From assembly GCF_020552705.1 (NCBI RefSeq), contig NZ_JAJBZG010000005.1:930001-994000 (forward strand): a stretch of 64,000 nucleotides of DNA. The letters run 5' to 3'. This document shows, one piece after another, positions 8,279-16,618 of the stretch. A program made the translations under genes and the position numbers. The stretch is from Christiangramia sediminis. Lineage in GTDB: Bacteria > Bacteroidota > Bacteroidia > Flavobacteriales > Flavobacteriaceae. The number at the start of each line of letters is the position of its first letter. The first letter of the stretch is position 1. Under the pieces are notes generated by a model. That model saw nothing but the letters and a program-made list of their open reading frames with translations, did not search any database and was not told the DNA's origin.

Positions 8279-9253
8279 TTATAATAAAAGCAAGTTACAG
8301 CCCCTAACGTCGCTATTATCAAACCTTCCCAGAATTTCAATTTCTTGATTATTTATTCTTCCAAGGTCCTGAGTGGCAATAAATGAACATGAATTGAGGT
8401 TGGCAAGATCTATAACATTAATTCCGCCGGTTTTTCCATCGGGCAAAAGAGATAAGGCATCTTCCGGATCGCGAATGAGCATATGCATCCATGGCGGACA
8501 ATCAAAAACTCCATCTCCTTTCGAGTAAGCCTGAGAAAGCAATTCGGTCATACCATATTCACTATGAATTTTTTCAACTCCAAAGCCATTTTTTAGATGA
8601 TGATGCAACTCCTGCCGTATCATTTCCTTGCGCCTTCCTTTCATTCCGCCGGTTTCCATGATCACGGTATTTTCCAAATGGAACTGTCTTTTCTCGATCA
8701 GGTCTAAAAGGGCAAAAGAAACTCCTATTAAAAATACTTTTTTTCCTCCTGCATCAAGTTTATTCAGTTTTTCAGAAAGAGAATCCAGATCATCCAGGTA
8801 AAAACCACTATCCTTATTTCCTGAACTTTTAATTAAGTGATCTGCCATATAGATCAGGGAGGAGCCTTTTCGTTCCAGGTAAGAGGGGAGTAGCGCAAGA
8901 AAAGTATAATCTGAAGGCTTTCCATAGAATCTATTAAATGTCTTTAGGAAACTTTCTTCATAAAGCCGAAGATCGGTTACATGATGTTTGCTGGTAACAG
9001 AGCCGGTGGTTCCGCTACTGGTGAAAGTAATTTGCGGAATTCGATCATCACTAATGACCTTTTTAGTTTTAAAAAACTCAATGGGTAGAAAAGGGATGTT
9101 CTTAAGAGTGGTCACATCGCCAGGCTTTCTATTTAAAAGTTCACAAAATTTCTGGTAGACCTTATTGTTGCTGAATTGATGCTCAAAAACCTCCAATGCC
9201 AGAGCCTCAAACTCATCTTCATCTGAGATCTCAAAGATTCTTTTTTCGAGCAT
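8279..9253 (-). CDS. LuxE-like acyl-protein synthetase family protein
   Basis: Member of the LuxE/acyl-protein synthetase family, which activate or carry acyl groups through an adenylate-type fold. In this 324-residue protein the phosphate-binding loop is FTSSGTTGSVTSKHHV at residues 77-92, and the SEYGMTELLSQAY motif corresponds to the conserved YGxTE of adenylating enzymes. The protein ends with the family-typical FDNSDVRGC. I use the ATG at 9253; a TTG eight codons earlier is possible. No lux genes or LuxC/D partners are nearby, so it works in another pathway. Bacteroidetes relatives are usually annotated as acyltransferases, and the substrate is unknown. Confidence 0.8.
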   Translation of the reverse strand: MLEKRIFEISDEDEFEALALEVFEHQFSNNKVYQKFCELLNRKPGDVTTLKNIPFLPIEFFKTKKVISDDRIPQITFTSSGTTGSVTSKHHVTDLRLYEESFLKTFNRFYGKPSDYTFLALLPSYLERKGSSLIYMADHLIKSSGNKDSGFYLDDLDSLSEKLNKLDAGGKKVFLIGVSFALLDLIEKRQFHLENTVIMETGGMKGRRKEMIRQELHHHLKNGFGVEKIHSEYGMTELLSQAYSKGDGVFDCPPWMHMLIRDPEDALSLLPDGKTGGINVIDLANLNSCSFIATQDLGRINNQEIEILGRFDNSDVRGCNLLLL

Positions 9254-9288
9254 AGAAAATAGTGGAATTTTCCTCAAAATTAAGGAAT

Positions 9289-9312
9289 AAAAAAAGCCTC
9301 TGAAACAGAAGC
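9289..9312 (-). terminator. Intrinsic terminator of the T9SS-tail gene
   Basis: On the minus strand a seven-pair stem (GCTTCTG / CAGAGGC, including one G-U pair) with a three-base loop is followed by seven T residues, 27 bases after the stop at 9339. Confidence 0.75.
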
Positions 9313-9338
9313 CGTTTAAAAAGTAAAGAGATAGTGAT

Positions 9339-9677
9339 TTATTTTACTACAAGTTTTCTGGTAGCTTTTGCTTTCCCTTCCTGTATCTTTAAAATATAAA
9401 TACCGGGAGTAAGTGATGAAACGTCCATTTCACGACCTCTTAAACGGGTTTTTTGAACGGGCTTACCTAAAACATTATAGATCTCTATGATTTTCTCCTG
9501 ATTCCTGGTAGAGGAAATATAAACTTTACCTCCAGTAACGGGGTTAGGATAAATAGACAATCCATCAATAGGAATTTCTGTTCGCTGTGGAACACGATCA
9601 GATTCCTGAGCATTTGCCGGTGCGGCAACTATCAGGAAACAAACAAGAAAAAAGATAAAAAGGTACTTTTGCTTCAT
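9339..9677 (-). CDS. Small secreted protein consisting of a type IX secretion sorting domain
   Basis: The 112-residue product has a signal peptide (about residues 1-24, hydrophobic core IFFLVCFLIVAAP, cleavage after ANA) and then almost nothing but a type A T9SS C-terminal domain: LSIYPNPVTGGKVYIS, IIEIYNVLGKPV, LTPGIYILKIQEG and a basic tail ending RKLVVK. These are the canonical blocks recognised by the gliding/secretion machinery that exports proteins across the outer membrane. There is no cargo domain. The ATG at 9677 is chosen because an upstream in-frame TTG would sit inside the -7 promoter element. Function unknown; it could be a surface-anchored peptide or a remnant of a larger protein. 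Confidence 0.87.
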   Translation of the reverse strand: MKQKYLFIFFLVCFLIVAAPANAQESDRVPQRTEIPIDGLSIYPNPVTGGKVYISSTRNQEKIIEIYNVLGKPVQKTRLRGREMDVSSLTPGIYILKIQEGKAKATRKLVVK

Positions 9678-9698
9678 TCTCTGTGATCTGGATTTAGA

Positions 9699-9706
9699 CA
9701 AACTTA
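9699..9706 (-). promoter_or_regulatory. Putative -7 promoter element of the T9SS-tail gene
   Basis: TAAGTTTG on the minus strand matches TAnnTTTG and lies about 20 bases before the chosen ATG. No clear -33 TTG is at the usual distance. Confidence 0.45.
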
Positions 9707-11880: not shown

Positions 11881-14679
11881 TTAAAAACTATAGTTTACTC
11901 CCAAGCTTAATACGGCTCCGCGATCGTAGGATCTTACAGTTTGGTTCGATTCATCTACATTACCTGAAATGGGTCTGATCGCCTGGAATCTTTCGATCTC
12001 AGGATTAAGTAAATTTTGTCCTCTAAACTGAAATTCCCAATGCTCATTCAGTTCTTTAGTCATAATTAGATCCAGAGTCACAAAGCCTTTTTCTATGATC
12101 TCGTCATTATATTGTATGTCAATCTGATCCAATCTCTGACTCTCAGGATTACCCAGGGCGAAAATTTTATCTGAAGCATAAGCTCCCACAAGAGTCGCTG
12201 TAAATGGATTTTCGGTTTCTGTAGAAACATTTAAAGAAGCATTAAAGATCCAGTCTGAAGCTCCCTGAAGACCTATTTCATCTTTGCCATTATATCTGAA
12301 AGTTCTAATGAACCGTCCCTCCTGGTCGTAGACATCTTTTAAATCCTGAGAATGCCACATTCTGGTAATATTTCCAGAAACTGCCAAGTCCAGACCTGCT
12401 TCATTTTCGTTTTCGATCACATCCATTCTGGCCTCCAGTTCCAATCCGTAAATATTGGCTTCTTCCCCTGCATTGAAATAAGAGAATACAGGTGCAGAAC
12501 CTCTCTCTCTTGCTTTGTTAATAGGATCGGTGATTCTTTTATAGAATCCAGTAAGGGAGATCAACTCTCCGGAACTTGGGAAAATTTCATATTTCAAGTC
12601 CAGATTGGTATTTGTAGAGGCTTCCAGATCTGGATTTCCCCTGGTGACTAAACCAGTTTGAGAAACATATTCGAAAGGGGCGATTTCCTTAAATTCTGGA
12701 AGTGTTATGGTTCTGCTTGCCGCAAGTCTTATGTTGGAATCTTCATTTGGAGAAAACCTGAAATTGATACTCGGGTAGATATTATCATAAGATTTATAAA
12801 CGAAATTAGGCAGATTTTGGGGGTAGTTATTTACATCAAAAATCACATCTATTTCATCCTTTTGAAAACGTGCTCCGAGGTTTAAATTCCATTTGGCATT
12901 TCCATAATTAAAAGAAGCGAAACCTGCCGCAGACTCTAAACTTGCTTCGTAGATATCTGGATTAAGAGTATTAAATACCAGGGATCTGTTGTTAAAATTA
13001 TCTGTAGTAAATATCCCGTCAAAATTATCTATAGATGAAGGGTTGACAGTATTAAAGTCTCTTTCTTCAGTTCCAAAAAATCTAGAGAAAAAGTCTCTTT
13101 GTTTATTTCTGTAATTTCCTCCAAACTTTACAAATACCTTCTTCTGAGTTTCGTCCTCTTCAATAAAATTGTACTGGTCCTGGAAAAAAGCGTTGAATTC
13201 AATATCATCAATCTGTTGTACAGATTTTCTTTGCTGATAGGCATTGGTTTCACCTAGTAGAATTGGTTCTGTTGGATGAATATTTACTTCATTTCTAATT
13301 CGGTTTGGCTCATCTGCATCTACCATATTATAACCTGCAGCCCATTCTATCTCATTTTTGCCTTTCCACATATCATGGAAACCGTGTAACTGGTTCACCC
13401 AAAGTCTTGTTTGCTTCGTATTTTGATCACGAACAAACTGATTAAAACCGTCGCCGCGATCACTTTCTTCGAAAACTATTCCTTCTCCATTTCTACCTCC
13501 TTCAAAAACTTCATCGGTAACTTTATTGATAAATAAACTGGTAGCTTTGATCCTGTTATTATCGTTTATCTGGTAACCCAGATCTAAAAGAGCGGTATTG
13601 TTATCAGTCTTTTTATAATTAGTAGCATCTGTAAAACCATCTTCAAAATCATTGTTACGATAGTTGGCGAAGGTTCCGGTATTATATTCAAAATCTACAG
13701 AATTGGTAGCCGTTAGCAACACTCTAAGATCCCCAAACTCTTTTCCTGCGGTAAGGGCATATCTTCGGTTTACTGGAAATACTGCAGTTCCCGGATCCCA
13801 TCCCTGGTTATTTAGTGAAAACCGTGTTGGAATCGCCTGATCGTAAAACCCGAAATAAACATCTTCCTGGTTTGGCGAAACCTTAAAATTGCTGAATTCT
13901 CCAACGGCATTCGTGTTTGCGCCAAATCTTACCCCAAGATCCAGTTCGCTATTACCTTTAAGTTCCCTGGAAGTTATGTCAATACTTCCTGAAGCCTGAT
14001 CGGCAGAATTCTCTGCGGAATAATTTTTACTTATGGAAATGTTCTGAATAACCCGGGTTGGGAATAGCCCCAGGTCAATGTTCTTTCGCTCCACGTCATC
14101 TGAAGGGATAGGAAGGCCGTTCATTGTGGTATACAGGTAACGATCTCCAAGGCCTCTTACGAAAATATCTCCAGAAGCTTCACTGCTGGTAACACCAGAA
14201 ATTTTGGTCGTTGCTGTCGCAGCATCGGAAACTCCTAATTTGGCTAATTCCTGAGCTCCGATGCTTTCTTTAATATTTACTGAATTCTTCTGTTCTATAA
14301 GAAGGGCTACCTGTGAATCCCTTCTGGAAACTGTAGTGATCACTACTTCATCCAGAGCAGCCGCACTGGAACCAAGATCTGTATTTACTTCGGTAACTTT
14401 TCCGGCTTCAACTACTACATTGGGTACTTCTAATGTTTCATATCCCACAAAACTAAAAACCAGGGTATAGGTGCCCGGTTGTAATTTGTCAAGTATATAA
14501 AGTCCGTCATAATCTGATGTTATACCTTTAGTAGATCCTTTTATTAATACATTGGCAAATGGGAGTGGCTCACCGCTCATTTCACGGTCAGAAAGTTTTC
14601 CGGCAATAGAACCGGTAGTTTCCTGAGCCTGCATTATACCCGTAATTAATAGGAATGATAGTAATAAAAATTTTTTCAT
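11881..14679 (-). CDS. TonB-dependent outer membrane receptor
   Basis: A 932-residue TonB-dependent receptor that imports a ligand across the outer membrane using ExbBD/TonB energy. It starts with a signal peptide (MKKFLLLSFLLITGIMQA) and then has a carboxypeptidase-regulatory-like domain at about 24-110 with PFANVLIKGSTKG and a YDGLYIL turn. The plug domain at about 115-245 includes TKISGVTSSEASGDIFVRG. The beta-barrel runs to the C terminus, which ends in aromatic F (GVNYSF). There is no SusD gene; the partner appears to be the duplicated lipoprotein downstream. It diverges from the PhoB-like gene across a promoter region with an 11-bp-period repeat array, so phosphate-starvation control is likely by inference. 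Confidence 0.93.
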   Translation of the reverse strand: MKKFLLLSFLLITGIMQAQETTGSIAGKLSDREMSGEPLPFANVLIKGSTKGITSDYDGLYILDKLQPGTYTLVFSFVGYETLEVPNVVVEAGKVTEVNTDLGSSAAALDEVVITTVSRRDSQVALLIEQKNSVNIKESIGAQELAKLGVSDAATATTKISGVTSSEASGDIFVRGLGDRYLYTTMNGLPIPSDDVERKNIDLGLFPTRVIQNISISKNYSAENSADQASGSIDITSRELKGNSELDLGVRFGANTNAVGEFSNFKVSPNQEDVYFGFYDQAIPTRFSLNNQGWDPGTAVFPVNRRYALTAGKEFGDLRVLLTATNSVDFEYNTGTFANYRNNDFEDGFTDATNYKKTDNNTALLDLGYQINDNNRIKATSLFINKVTDEVFEGGRNGEGIVFEESDRGDGFNQFVRDQNTKQTRLWVNQLHGFHDMWKGKNEIEWAAGYNMVDADEPNRIRNEVNIHPTEPILLGETNAYQQRKSVQQIDDIEFNAFFQDQYNFIEEDETQKKVFVKFGGNYRNKQRDFFSRFFGTEERDFNTVNPSSIDNFDGIFTTDNFNNRSLVFNTLNPDIYEASLESAAGFASFNYGNAKWNLNLGARFQKDEIDVIFDVNNYPQNLPNFVYKSYDNIYPSINFRFSPNEDSNIRLAASRTITLPEFKEIAPFEYVSQTGLVTRGNPDLEASTNTNLDLKYEIFPSSGELISLTGFYKRITDPINKARERGSAPVFSYFNAGEEANIYGLELEARMDVIENENEAGLDLAVSGNITRMWHSQDLKDVYDQEGRFIRTFRYNGKDEIGLQGASDWIFNASLNVSTETENPFTATLVGAYASDKIFALGNPESQRLDQIDIQYNDEIIEKGFVTLDLIMTKELNEHWEFQFRGQNLLNPEIERFQAIRPISGNVDESNQTVRSYDRGAVLSLGVNYSF

Positions 14680-14705
14680 TTTTGTTTTGCTATAAAATCT
14701 CGCTG

Positions 14706-14713
14706 CAAATTAA
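14706..14713 (-). promoter_or_regulatory. Possible -7 element of the TonB receptor promoter
   Basis: TTAATTTG on the minus strand matches seven of eight positions of TAnnTTTG. It lies about 22 bases from the nearest unit of the direct-repeat array, the distance expected if an activator bound at the -33 region. Confidence 0.4.
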
Positions 14714-14732
14714 CGCTGAAGACATGAGGCCG

Positions 14733-14798
14733 GTGTTACCTAAGAATTAATCCTTTGTCATTAAAGGGTTAGTTAAATGTTACTAATAGGTTAAGCCC
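14733..14798. promoter_or_regulatory. Pho-box-like array of six 11-bp direct repeats
   Basis: Six consecutive 11-mers read GTGTTACCTAA, GAATTAATCCT, TTGTCATTAAA, GGGTTAGTTAA, ATGTTACTAAT and AGGTTAAGCCC. The core GTTA (with ATTA and GTCA variants) recurs exactly every 11 bases at 14735, 14746, 14757, 14768, 14779 and 14790. PhoB/OmpR-family regulators bind direct repeats with this 11-bp spacing, and the third unit resembles the E. coli half-site CTGTCAT. The array lies between a PhoB-like gene and a TonB receptor gene, so autoregulation plus receptor activation is the natural reading. Confidence 0.6.
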
Positions 14799-14855
14799 CC
14801 TATAGTTCAAATTATTGGTTAATTTTACGGTCTCTTAACCACATTATAATTCGTT

Positions 14856-15539
14856 ATGAAGAAAAAAGACATTCAGATTTTATTAGTTGATGATGAACCG
14901 GATATCTTAGAAATAGTTGGGTATAATCTTTCTTCTGAAGGTTATAATGTTATCACTGCAGATAATGGTGCAGATGCGGTAAAGATTGCTAAGAAAAAGA
15001 AGCCTCACCTTATTATTTTAGATGTAATGATGCCAGAGATGGATGGGATCGAAGCCTGTGAGCAGATTAGAAAAATGCCCGATATGGAAGGAACCATAAT
15101 CACCTTTCTTACCGCTCGCGGAGAAGACTATTCTCAAATGGCAGGTTTTGATGCGGGTGCCGATGACTATATTACCAAACCAATCAAACCAAAAGTCTTA
15201 CTTAGTAAAGTGAAGGCTTTATTGAGAAGATATCGCGAGGAAGATATTTCTTCAAATATTGTGAAACTGGGGGATATAACAATTAATCGCGAAGAATATA
15301 AGATCGTTCAGAACGGAGAGGAAATGGCGCTTCCCCGTAAAGAATTTGAGTTACTCTCTTTACTAGCATCTAAACCAGGAAAGGTATTTAAAAGAGAAGA
15401 TATTCTGGACAATGTTTGGGGTAACGATATTGTGGTTGGCGGAAGAACTATAGATGTGCATATTAGAAAGCTGCGTGAGAAGATTGGCGATGATAAGATT
15501 AAGACCATAAAAGGAGTTGGCTATAAGTTTGTAGTTTAA
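14856..15539 (+). CDS. PhoB-like response regulator
   Basis: OmpR/PhoB-family response regulator of 227 residues. The receiver domain (about 6-122) has the acidic pair in LLVDDEPD, the phosphoacceptor D56 in HLIILDVMMP, and the conserved lysine in DYITKPIKP. The C-terminal winged-helix domain (about 130-227) contains EFELLSLLASKPGKVF and VDVHIRKLR-type motifs (GGRTIDVHIRKLREKIG). Its stop overlaps the start of a PhoR-like kinase (TAATG), indicating a translationally coupled two-component system. Similarity in length and order to PhoB-PhoR, plus the 11-bp direct repeats upstream, support a phosphate-response role, but the signal is inferred. Confidence 0.92.
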   Translation: MKKKDIQILLVDDEPDILEIVGYNLSSEGYNVITADNGADAVKIAKKKKPHLIILDVMMPEMDGIEACEQIRKMPDMEGTIITFLTARGEDYSQMAGFDAGADDYITKPIKPKVLLSKVKALLRRYREEDISSNIVKLGDITINREEYKIVQNGEEMALPRKEFELLSLLASKPGKVFKREDILDNVWGNDIVVGGRTIDVHIRKLREKIGDDKIKTIKGVGYKFVV

Positions 15540-16618
15540 TGTCACAAAAATTTAAACGTTCATATCGTTTTGCACTTAGGACTGCTCTTTATATAAGCGT
15601 ATTCCTCACGGCGATTATGAGTGTTTTTGCTTTTTTTGAGATTCAGTCACTTTGGATCTCATTGCTGGTTTTTGCAATTTTCTGTTACTTCTTTTCATTT
15701 TTAATTATTCAGTATCGTGTGGAGCGTTTTATATACCGAAGAATTAAAAAGGTATATGATAATGTTTCTTTACTGGATTCAAAAACATTAAGTCCCAACC
15801 AGATCACTACAGATATGTCCAGTCTTACCCGTGAGGTAAAGAAATTTGCTGAAGACAAGAAACTGGAGATTGAAACTTTAAAGGTGAGGGAGGCTTATCG
15901 TAAGGAATTTATGGGCAATGTCTCGCATGAATTAAAAACCCCATTATTTACTGTGCAGGGGTATATTCTCACATTATTGGACGGGGCTCATAAGGATAAG
16001 GCAATAAGAAAAAAATACCTGGCCCGTGCTAATAAAGGAGTAGAAAGACTCATTTATATTGTAAAGGACCTGGATATGATCACCAAGCTGGAAACCGGTG
16101 ATCTTCACTTGCGATATGAAACATTTGATATTGTTGAATTAATTCAGGCTTCATTTGATCTTCTTGAAATGAAAGCTGCTAAGAAAAATATTACCCTCAC
16201 CTTTGACTTTGATTACGAAGAGCCAATATACGTCAGGGCAGATAGAGAAAGAATTCAGCAGGTGCTTACCAATCTTATCGTGAATTCCATTAAATATGGG
16301 AAGAAGGGTGGTACTACCGAAATTAGTATTGAAAACCTCATTAAAAATAAAGTCATCGTGCGGGTGACCGATAATGGGGAAGGAATTGAAAAAGAGAATA
16401 TTCCGAGATTATTTGAACGTTTTTATCGTGTGGATAAGAGTGGGTCGAGAAAAGAAGGTGGTTCTGGACTGGGATTGTCTATTGTAAAACATATACTCGA
16501 AGCCCATGGCGAAAAGATCTATGTAGAAAGTGTTTTTGGAGTGGGAAGTGAATTTTCATTCACGCTCGAAAAAAGAAAAAAGATCCCGGAAGATAACGTG
16601 ATCCCCGAAATCACGTAA
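15539..16618 (+). CDS. PhoR-like sensor histidine kinase
   Basis: Membrane histidine kinase of 359 residues that should phosphorylate the PhoB-like regulator encoded immediately upstream. Two N-terminal membrane segments lie within residues 12-58, with only a very short periplasmic loop, as in PhoR. The HisKA helix holds H130 in MGNVSHELKTPLF. The HATPase domain shows the N box (LTNLIVNSIKYG), the G1 box DNGEGIE, and the G2 box GGSGLGLSIVKH. The absence of a sizeable periplasmic sensor fits control through a transporter complex, as for PhoR. The last 63 bases overlap the convergent glycosyltransferase-like gene. Confidence 0.93.
   Translation: MSQKFKRSYRFALRTALYISVFLTAIMSVFAFFEIQSLWISLLVFAIFCYFFSFLIIQYRVERFIYRRIKKVYDNVSLLDSKTLSPNQITTDMSSLTREVKKFAEDKKLEIETLKVREAYRKEFMGNVSHELKTPLFTVQGYILTLLDGAHKDKAIRKKYLARANKGVERLIYIVKDLDMITKLETGDLHLRYETFDIVELIQASFDLLEMKAAKKNITLTFDFDYEEPIYVRADRERIQQVLTNLIVNSIKYGKKGGTTEISIENLIKNKVIVRVTDNGEGIEKENIPRLFERFYRVDKSGSRKEGGSGLGLSIVKHILEAHGEKIYVESVFGVGSEFSFTLEKRKKIPEDNVIPEIT

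Follow-up and report, generated by a model that had tools for sequence, protein, structure and literature searches.

The window analyzed here, a stretch of 64,000 nucleotides of the Christiangramia sediminis genome, contains the gene of a PhoB-like response regulator followed by that of a PhoR-like histidine kinase and, transcribed divergently from them, the gene of a TonB-dependent receptor followed by that of a putative lipoprotein. The intergenic region between regulator and receptor carries an array of six short direct repeats (Table 1), which is very probably a Pho box, that is, the operator of the adjacent PhoB-type regulator, and appears to be composed of two operators placed in one 11-base register. 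What is observed is the repeats, their conservation, their fixed spacing to a –7-like promoter element and the occurrence of the same motif at phosphate genes. The operator reading is preferred because of these repeats, the motif shared by the orthologues, the sites at PHO4 and MORN_2 genes and the induction by phosphate depletion of a Flavobacterium johnsoniae cluster.

Table 1. Features of the regulator–receptor locus (positions refer to the window; +, forward strand; -, reverse strand).
Feature	Position	Strand	Remarks
Putative lipoprotein, 660 amino acids	9843..11825	-	follows the receptor; placed like Fjoh_0546 (lipoprotein FII)
TonB-dependent receptor with CarbopepD_reg_2	11881..14679	-	divergent from the regulator; Pfam
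Receptor-side –7-like element TTAATTTG	14706..14713	-	TTTGC at fixed distance from unit 1
Unit 1 GTGTTACCTAA	14733..14743	+	receptor-side operator edge
Unit 2 GAATTAATCCT	14744..14754	+	degenerate
Unit 3 TTGTCATTAAA	14755..14765	+	weak linking unit; reads GTCA (TGTCA), E. coli-like
Unit 4 GGGTTAGTTAA	14766..14776	+	first half of the family-wide dimer
Unit 5 ATGTTACTAAT	14777..14787	+	second half of the family-wide dimer
Unit 6 AGGTTAAGCCC	14788..14798	+	lineage-specific
Regulator-side –7-like element TAATTTTA	14820..14827	+	TAnnTTTA, 32 bases past the dimer
PhoB-like OmpR-family response regulator, 227 amino acids	14856..15539	+	Pfam Response_reg, Trans_reg_C
PhoR-like histidine kinase, 359 amino acids	15539..16618	+	Pfam HisKA, HATPase_c
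Glycosyltransferase, Glyco_tran_28_C PF04101	16556..17617	-	beyond the kinase; family as in Fjoh_0541

Six Units With a Period of 11 Bases

The cores of the six units read GTTA, ATTA, GTCA, GTTA, GTTA and GTTA and start at 14735, 14746, 14757, 14768, 14779 and 14790, exactly every 11 bases, as the original prediction had stated, and neither strand of the window has another run of three or more such cores (GTTA/ATTA/GTCA) with this period. The repetition is limited to these four-base cores, and Tandem Repeats Finder gave no entry at 14000–15500. The array thus shows what is expected of a Pho box, at least two direct repeats of 11 nucleotides with a conserved core, while the E. coli-type consensus CTGTCAT, with its TGTCA core, is not found: the family consensus is TGTTA, and GTCA occurs in unit 3 only. 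The proposed resemblance to the E. coli PhoB half-site applies to the TGTCA of the weak unit 3 and does not extend to the family core.

A periodicity of this kind might arise by chance in AT-rich promoter DNA. When all 256 four-mers were evaluated at periods of 8 to 14 with at most one mismatch per core, the 176-base intergenic region scored 22, a value equalled or exceeded in 1 of 400 dinucleotide shuffles (mean 13.3, standard deviation 1.7, maximum 23) and in 2 of the 363 tiles of 176 bases of the window. From one sequence alone, the significance is moderate, suggestive and not decisive, and it is the comparison with other genomes that decides: a chance origin is contradicted by the conservation across genera, the recovery of phosphate genes and the fixed promoter spacing, and we consider it extremely improbable.

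Conservation in the Genus and the Family

A search for the regulator gave one match at E ≤ 1e-60 in 142 of 149 family genomes. Regulator loci from 70 of these 142, together with the best 80 of 589 relatives, made a set of 150, which was reduced to 146 (114 near and 32 distant) by removing L117, with too little upstream sequence, and three near-duplicates. Motif discovery in the upstream intergenic regions of the 114 near loci returned aTGTTAccTtAATGTTAttAaT, two 11-base direct repeats with a site fraction of 0.99. The same motif also emerged from the best among 60 random starts. It corresponds in the window to units 4–5, hereafter the dimer, which are the strongest match to the position weight matrix (PWM) in the whole 64 kb (at 14766, 18.9 bits, with a runner-up at 14.0), although this score is not independent, the site being among the 114 training loci. 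At least 14 bits are reached by 93 of the 114 regulator-upstream sites.

Self-matches within the 350-base upstream regions are in excess at lags of 11 (z 10.1), 33 (5.5) and 44 (4.5) and weakly so at 22 (2.2). Lags 6, 9 and 12 are likewise raised, probably by coding sequence, and so is lag 31 (5.7). An extra ATGTTA right before TATCTTT, about 20 bases past the dimer, was seen at the receptor-less loci L113, L062 and L030 and may account for the peak at lag 31. The conservation of the 11-base period in orthologous intergenic regions, on which the original prediction depended, is thus borne out by motif discovery, by the lag peaks and by the counts in congeners.

In the 21 genomes of the genus in which the regulator is linked to the receptor, the own genome included, exact GTTA is found at units 1 to 6 in 19, 0, 0, 21, 21 and 14 cases, and cores with at most one mismatch in 21, 21, 17, 21, 21 and 16. 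Five units are therefore kept across the genus, and the sixth is variable and least conserved. Across the family, unit 6 is exact and in phase in 2 of 29 receptor-linked loci; it may have been brought into phase here by an 8-base difference, since several other genera carry GTTAAG 8 bases further on, out of register. Some relatives have instead a TGTAAAG unit at the opposite end of the array. A GTTA exactly three units upstream of the dimer, the place of unit 1, is present at 22 of the 29 receptor-linked loci vs 4 of the 85 others, where mostly the dimer alone is retained. In six Flavobacterium loci (L087, L096, L104, L110, L114 and L118) another dimer had been taken as the anchor, and these are counted as misses in the tallies of 28 and 29 loci. 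The idea of six contiguous units as one extended operator holds for their periodicity and conservation; the units are unequal, however, and are better described as two operators in one register.

Promoter Geometry

Promoters of Bacteroidota consist of –33 and –7 elements of the form TTG...TAnnTTTG. The receptor-side –7-like element, which had been placed 22 bases from the array with an activator at –33, is separated from the first core by 21 bases and from the edge of unit 1 by 19; the –33-type spacing itself is upheld when it is counted from TTTGC. The distance from the edge of unit 1 to TTTGC on the receptor strand is exactly 23 nucleotides at all 22 family loci that have GTTA in phase (28 divergent loci examined), and within the genus this holds in 21 of 21 receptor-linked genomes and in none of the 3 receptor-less ones. 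After re-anchoring, the distance is again 23 at L087, L096, L104 and L110 (from the dimer edge) and at L118 (from the edge of unit –1), and 24 at L114. Because of this constant distance and the form of Bacteroidota promoters, the operator edge is likely to coincide with position –33 of the receptor promoter.

The same spacing recurs in part at boxes upstream of other genes (n = 23, see below). Twelve of these have (C/T)TTG(C/T) at 23, including PHO4 promoters of the genus, of Aquimarina and of a Flavobacterium. In four others (three porins and one receptor) TTTGC stands at 12, one unit short of 23; TTTG at 22 was found in two and TTTGA at 21 in one. No such element was found at the remaining four of the 23, namely L108 (PstS), L145 (Na/Pi), the second receptor box of L073 and L298, which is the no-box control. 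On the regulator side, TAnnTTTA follows the dimer at 32 or 33 bases in all 21 receptor-linked congeners and, in the family, most often at 32–35, with a second group at 26–28.

These data bear on the possibility that only the dimer is functional, serving phoB autoregulation, in which case units 1–3 and 6 would be relics or chance matches and the receptor would be under some other control. The absence of exact GTTA from units 2 and 3 in all 21 receptor-linked congeners, the inexact unit 6 in 7 of the 21 and the survival of mostly the dimer alone at the 85 loci without a receptor neighbor are what such an arrangement would leave behind. It does not account for a unit 1 that is exact in 19 of 21 congeners, for the concentration of a unit at its place in receptor-linked loci, or for the TTTGC 23 nucleotides from its edge in those 22 loci and in all 21 congeners, as at several PHO4 promoters, and on balance we regard it as unlikely.

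The Motif at Other Genes

A profile built from the 93 regulator-upstream sites of at least 14 bits was searched against whole genomes. The own genome gave eight matches at E ≤ 10. The first in rank lies in the gap between a Porin_O_P gene and PHO4, 50 bases upstream of the latter, the second (L245, C1:256594-256617) 59 bases upstream of the gene of a MORN_2 protein of 121 amino acids, and the third is the window site, units 4–5. Across the genus, 24 genomes yielded 102 matches at E ≤ 1, with a match at the regulator in 23 genomes and at PHO4 in 13, all 13 oriented as the array is towards the receptor. The 30 loci listed among these 102 matches, taken with the window site, comprise 11 at the regulator, 5 at PHO4 and 15 at MORN_2 genes. 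Eighteen lesser matches comprise 4 at MORN_2 genes, 1 at a porin and 13 that are unclaimed; the rest of the 102 were assigned, from their coordinates, only where they fall at the regulator or PHO4. The 13 unclaimed matches lie at the start of a sigma-factor-like gene (5), inside open reading frames (ORFs; 4), upstream of a lipoyl-synthase-like gene (2) and upstream of an SDR-like gene (2), names that were given by reading only; the five at the sigma-factor-like coding start are conserved coding sequence, probably matched by chance.

The MORN_2 protein, of about 120 amino acids with a leader-like N-terminus, has the dimer about 60 bases upstream of its gene in 19 of the 24 genus genomes, and MORN_2-like proteins with a box occur in three Flavobacterium genomes (L302, L303 and L310) and in Aquimarina (scores 277–315; shuffled maximum 57). 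It is a candidate for a core phosphate-response gene. Five Flavobacterium genomes, whose regulator sites are absent from the profile and from the matches, gave 13 matches at E ≤ 0.3, of which 5 lie elsewhere and 8 lie upstream of PHO4, PhoU_div, Porin_O_P, Phosphodiest-family and TonB-receptor-like genes and at three MORN_2-like genes; the Phosphodiest-family match (L311) is about 240 bases from its gene, and one of the 13, L312, is the L108 porin site that is also counted among the 25 off-site matches described next.

The spacing of the two halves was varied in 80 named loci (795 kb). At a half-spacing of 11, there are 25 off-site matches of at least 14 bits. A spacing of 22 gave 12, each of 13 further spacings 0–4, and 30 column permutations 4.4 ± 2.4 (maximum 9). 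Fourteen of the 25, with two pairs overlapping at one site each, are at PHO4, Porin_O_P, PstS-like PBP_like_2, Na_Pi_cotrans/PhoU, TonB-receptor or MORN_2-like genes; the others are 4 inside ORFs and 7 elsewhere, the latter being at a gene with a type IX secretion system (T9SS) tail in L133, in the regulator–receptor intergenic region of L133, upstream of the regulator in L100, at a gene without Pfam match in L103, at a gene in L114, and in L102 and L131. The L114 gene product, of 116 amino acids, has a modest similarity to the MORN_2 protein (score 166). Sites thus lie upstream of phosphate-acquisition genes in the own and in related genomes, though not at every such gene. The prediction that repeats would be found upstream of phosphate genes is in this way supported by the full profile, which finds PHO4 and others, and not by a bare repeat pattern.

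As to candidates set aside, the bare three-unit pattern was rejected as a regulon finder for falling below its reversed control, where the full profile works, and PhoX (PF05787), matched in one of the 13 genomes to which the named loci led, was dropped as a test gene. The own genome gave no match to PhoU (PF01895). The SDR-like protein gene is a possible target in two genus genomes (L286 and L297), with a box about 67–77 bases upstream on the same strand, and the lipoyl-synthase-like gene is another in two (L284 and L291), with a box about 130 bases upstream on the opposite strand.

Comparison With Known Phosphate Systems

The closest parallel is found in F. johnsoniae, for which the part of the published study available to us lists under "PhoBR operon" the order glycosyltransferase, phoR, phoB, TonB-dependent transporter (TBDT) and lipoprotein (PMC8115612). 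Under phosphate depletion, the fold-change column of the same source gives 3.06 for PhoB, 8.02 for the receptor and 9.91 for the lipoprotein, with no significant change for PhoR (0.76) and for the porin of the cluster, Fjoh_0542 (–1.3); the "log2FC" of the text suggests that the column is in log2 units (PMC8115612). The window has the same order of glycosyltransferase, phoR, phoB, TBDT and lipoprotein, and its receptor contains all three Pfam families listed for Fjoh_0545, a likeness to the phoBR-TBDT-FII cluster (PUSIV) that is one of order and Pfam content; as far as the source goes, the F. johnsoniae cluster differs in containing the porin, which the window does not have at that place (PMC8115612). 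The terms "pho box" and "motif" are absent from the main text of that paper, as far as it was available to us.

In E. coli, phosphate-transport genes and phoB itself are preceded by Pho boxes. The core of these is CTGTCAT, in contrast to the TGTTA of the array, which further differs in its TTTGC-type –7 promoters and in placing its five or six units between divergent genes in a single register. The Bacillus PhoP consensus, TTAACA, is close to the reverse complement TAACA of the array. The operators of Bacillus subtilis PhoP and of Streptomyces PhoP are, like the array, 11-nucleotide direct repeats, and those of Streptomyces are simple or complex, with units varying in number and quality, according to the portion of the review at hand (PMC4415409). 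Since other phyla are known to have Pho boxes of 11-base direct repeats as well as operators of several units, the array is a variant rather than a new kind of operator; unlike it, the Bacillus and Streptomyces systems belong to other phyla with another promoter type, whereas here a single array between two divergent genes seemingly serves both. Among the Bacteroidota, PhoB of Bacteroides fragilis binds the pstC promoter in an electrophoretic mobility shift assay, and the available part of that report gives no consensus site (PMC3547664); the window regulator, for its part, scores below the Bacteroidota PhoB model NF053854. Putative Pho boxes are mentioned in plcP gene clusters of marine bacteria, with no sequence in the part available (PMC4796936), and what is accessible of PMC3160421 holds only a citation of a Streptomyces paper. 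No sequence of a flavobacterial Pho box was seen among the listed results of open-access literature searches or in the available parts of the papers cited here, most subscription papers and all supplements being outside this search.

The Array as a Probable PhoB Operator

The ligand of the array is, we infer, the adjacent regulator and not a paralogue. Its receiver domain and Trans_reg_C winged helix are those of the OmpR/PhoB family, and its two top NCBIfam matches are the PhoB models TIGR02154 (219.7 bits) and NF053854 (210.4 bits). Direct repeats with a period of 11 bases are general for the OmpR family, which speaks for the alternative that another member of the family uses this operator to control phosphate genes, as do the 37 first-look, putative OmpR-family candidates that the regulator query gave in the own genome. 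Autoregulation is, on the other hand, typical of PhoB, and a motif site is found upstream of the regulator gene in nearly all 114 loci, even where the neighboring gene differs; the F. johnsoniae counterpart is moreover named PhoB and is itself induced, in the part of the source available (PMC8115612). We therefore hold control by another regulator to be very unlikely.

Several observations weigh against the array being a PhoB operator. The regulator remains below the curated cut-offs of both PhoB models (296.2 bits for TIGR02154 and 270 for NF053854) and does not qualify as a PhoB equivalog. A PWM match of at least 14 bits within 1600 bases upstream was found at only 3 of the 32 distant loci, unit 1 is kept in 1 of the 3 receptor-less congeners, and the Fisher p of 9e-14 for its association with the receptor (22/29 vs 4/85) is uncorrected for shared ancestry. 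TTTGC is missing from both 23 and 12 at 7 of the 23 boxes near other genes, the no-box control included. The whole-genome profile searches ran without a decoy profile; the second PHO4 of the own genome is not among its eight matches, 11 of the 24 genus genomes have no PHO4 match at E ≤ 1, with no box seen in two of these whose sequence was read, and the bare pattern GTTAN7GTTAN7GTTA with at most one mismatch gave 14 matches in the own genome vs 25 for the reversed control. In what could be consulted of the F. johnsoniae study, the porin Fjoh_0542 is uninduced, despite the box that relatives carry at this gene, and PafA, to which one of the eight Flavobacterium matches is probably related, is constitutive (PMC8115612).

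With PhoB as the probable ligand, the array may work as follows. Upon phosphate limitation, the kinase would phosphorylate the regulator, which would then bind the 11-base TGTTA repeats head-to-tail. Units 1–2, which are TAAC repeats when read towards the receptor, would act on the divergent receptor promoter, with the edge of unit 1 taking the –33 position before the Bacteroidota-type –7 element in a class-II-like activation, while units 4–5, upstream of the phoB promoter, would form the dimer for autoregulation. Units 2–3 would keep both operators in one helical register, so that bound dimers could touch over about 55–66 bases. Binding, its dependence on phosphorylation, activation and cooperativity are what we infer from the layout, and induction of the window genes at low phosphate through the array would be expected by analogy with the F. 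johnsoniae genes of the same order. More tentatively, and with doubt prevailing, the whole could be a single cooperative double-ended switch, in which two operators of different geometry, placed exactly 33 bases apart, carry a continuous filament of phosphorylated PhoB that throws regulator and receptor together, TGTTA-N6 being a general phosphate code of the Flavobacteriaceae and the MORN_2 protein, probably exported, belonging to the core regulon.

The flavobacterial phosphate regulon has so far been known from omics data. A motif with a fixed geometry to a TTTGC –7 element would make it predictable from sequence and would open to experiment the way in which an activator of the OmpR family works together with the unusual promoter of Bacteroidota; it also singles out an uncharacterized MORN_2 protein as a possible core phosphate-response gene. 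The phosphate response of ecologically important marine flavobacteria would then have a DNA code; flavobacteria are described as important in the turnover of organic phosphorus in the part of the source available to us (PMC8115612).

Neighboring Genes

For the kinase, the PnpS and PhoR models of NCBIfam rank top, yet below their cut-offs. The protein of 660 amino acids encoded after the receptor has no match in Pfam or NCBIfam; judged by reading only, it reads as a lipoprotein of repeat character with two similar halves. Upstream of the glycosyltransferase there is only a 9.4-bit PWM match in the opposite orientation, and no box is claimed there; the frames of this gene and of the kinase are convergent, their 3' ends overlapping by 63 bases (16556–16618).

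The company of the regulator gene varies. In Aquimarina (L073) and Plebeiobacterium (L121) it adjoins PHO4, and in a metagenome-assembled genome of Bacteroidia (L134) it adjoins PhoU_div. In the receptor-less family members L075 and L084, genes with a T9SS tail, as identified by Pfam, adjoin phoB, and in the window a T9SS-tail protein is encoded at 8279–9701 (-), further down the receptor strand. Because these tail genes adjoin phoB where the receptor is missing and stand further down here, the receptor and lipoprotein genes seem to come and go between phoB and the T9SS-tail gene. Among the genomes scanned, the nearest named relative is Christiangramia oceanisediminis, with a regulator identity of 92%.
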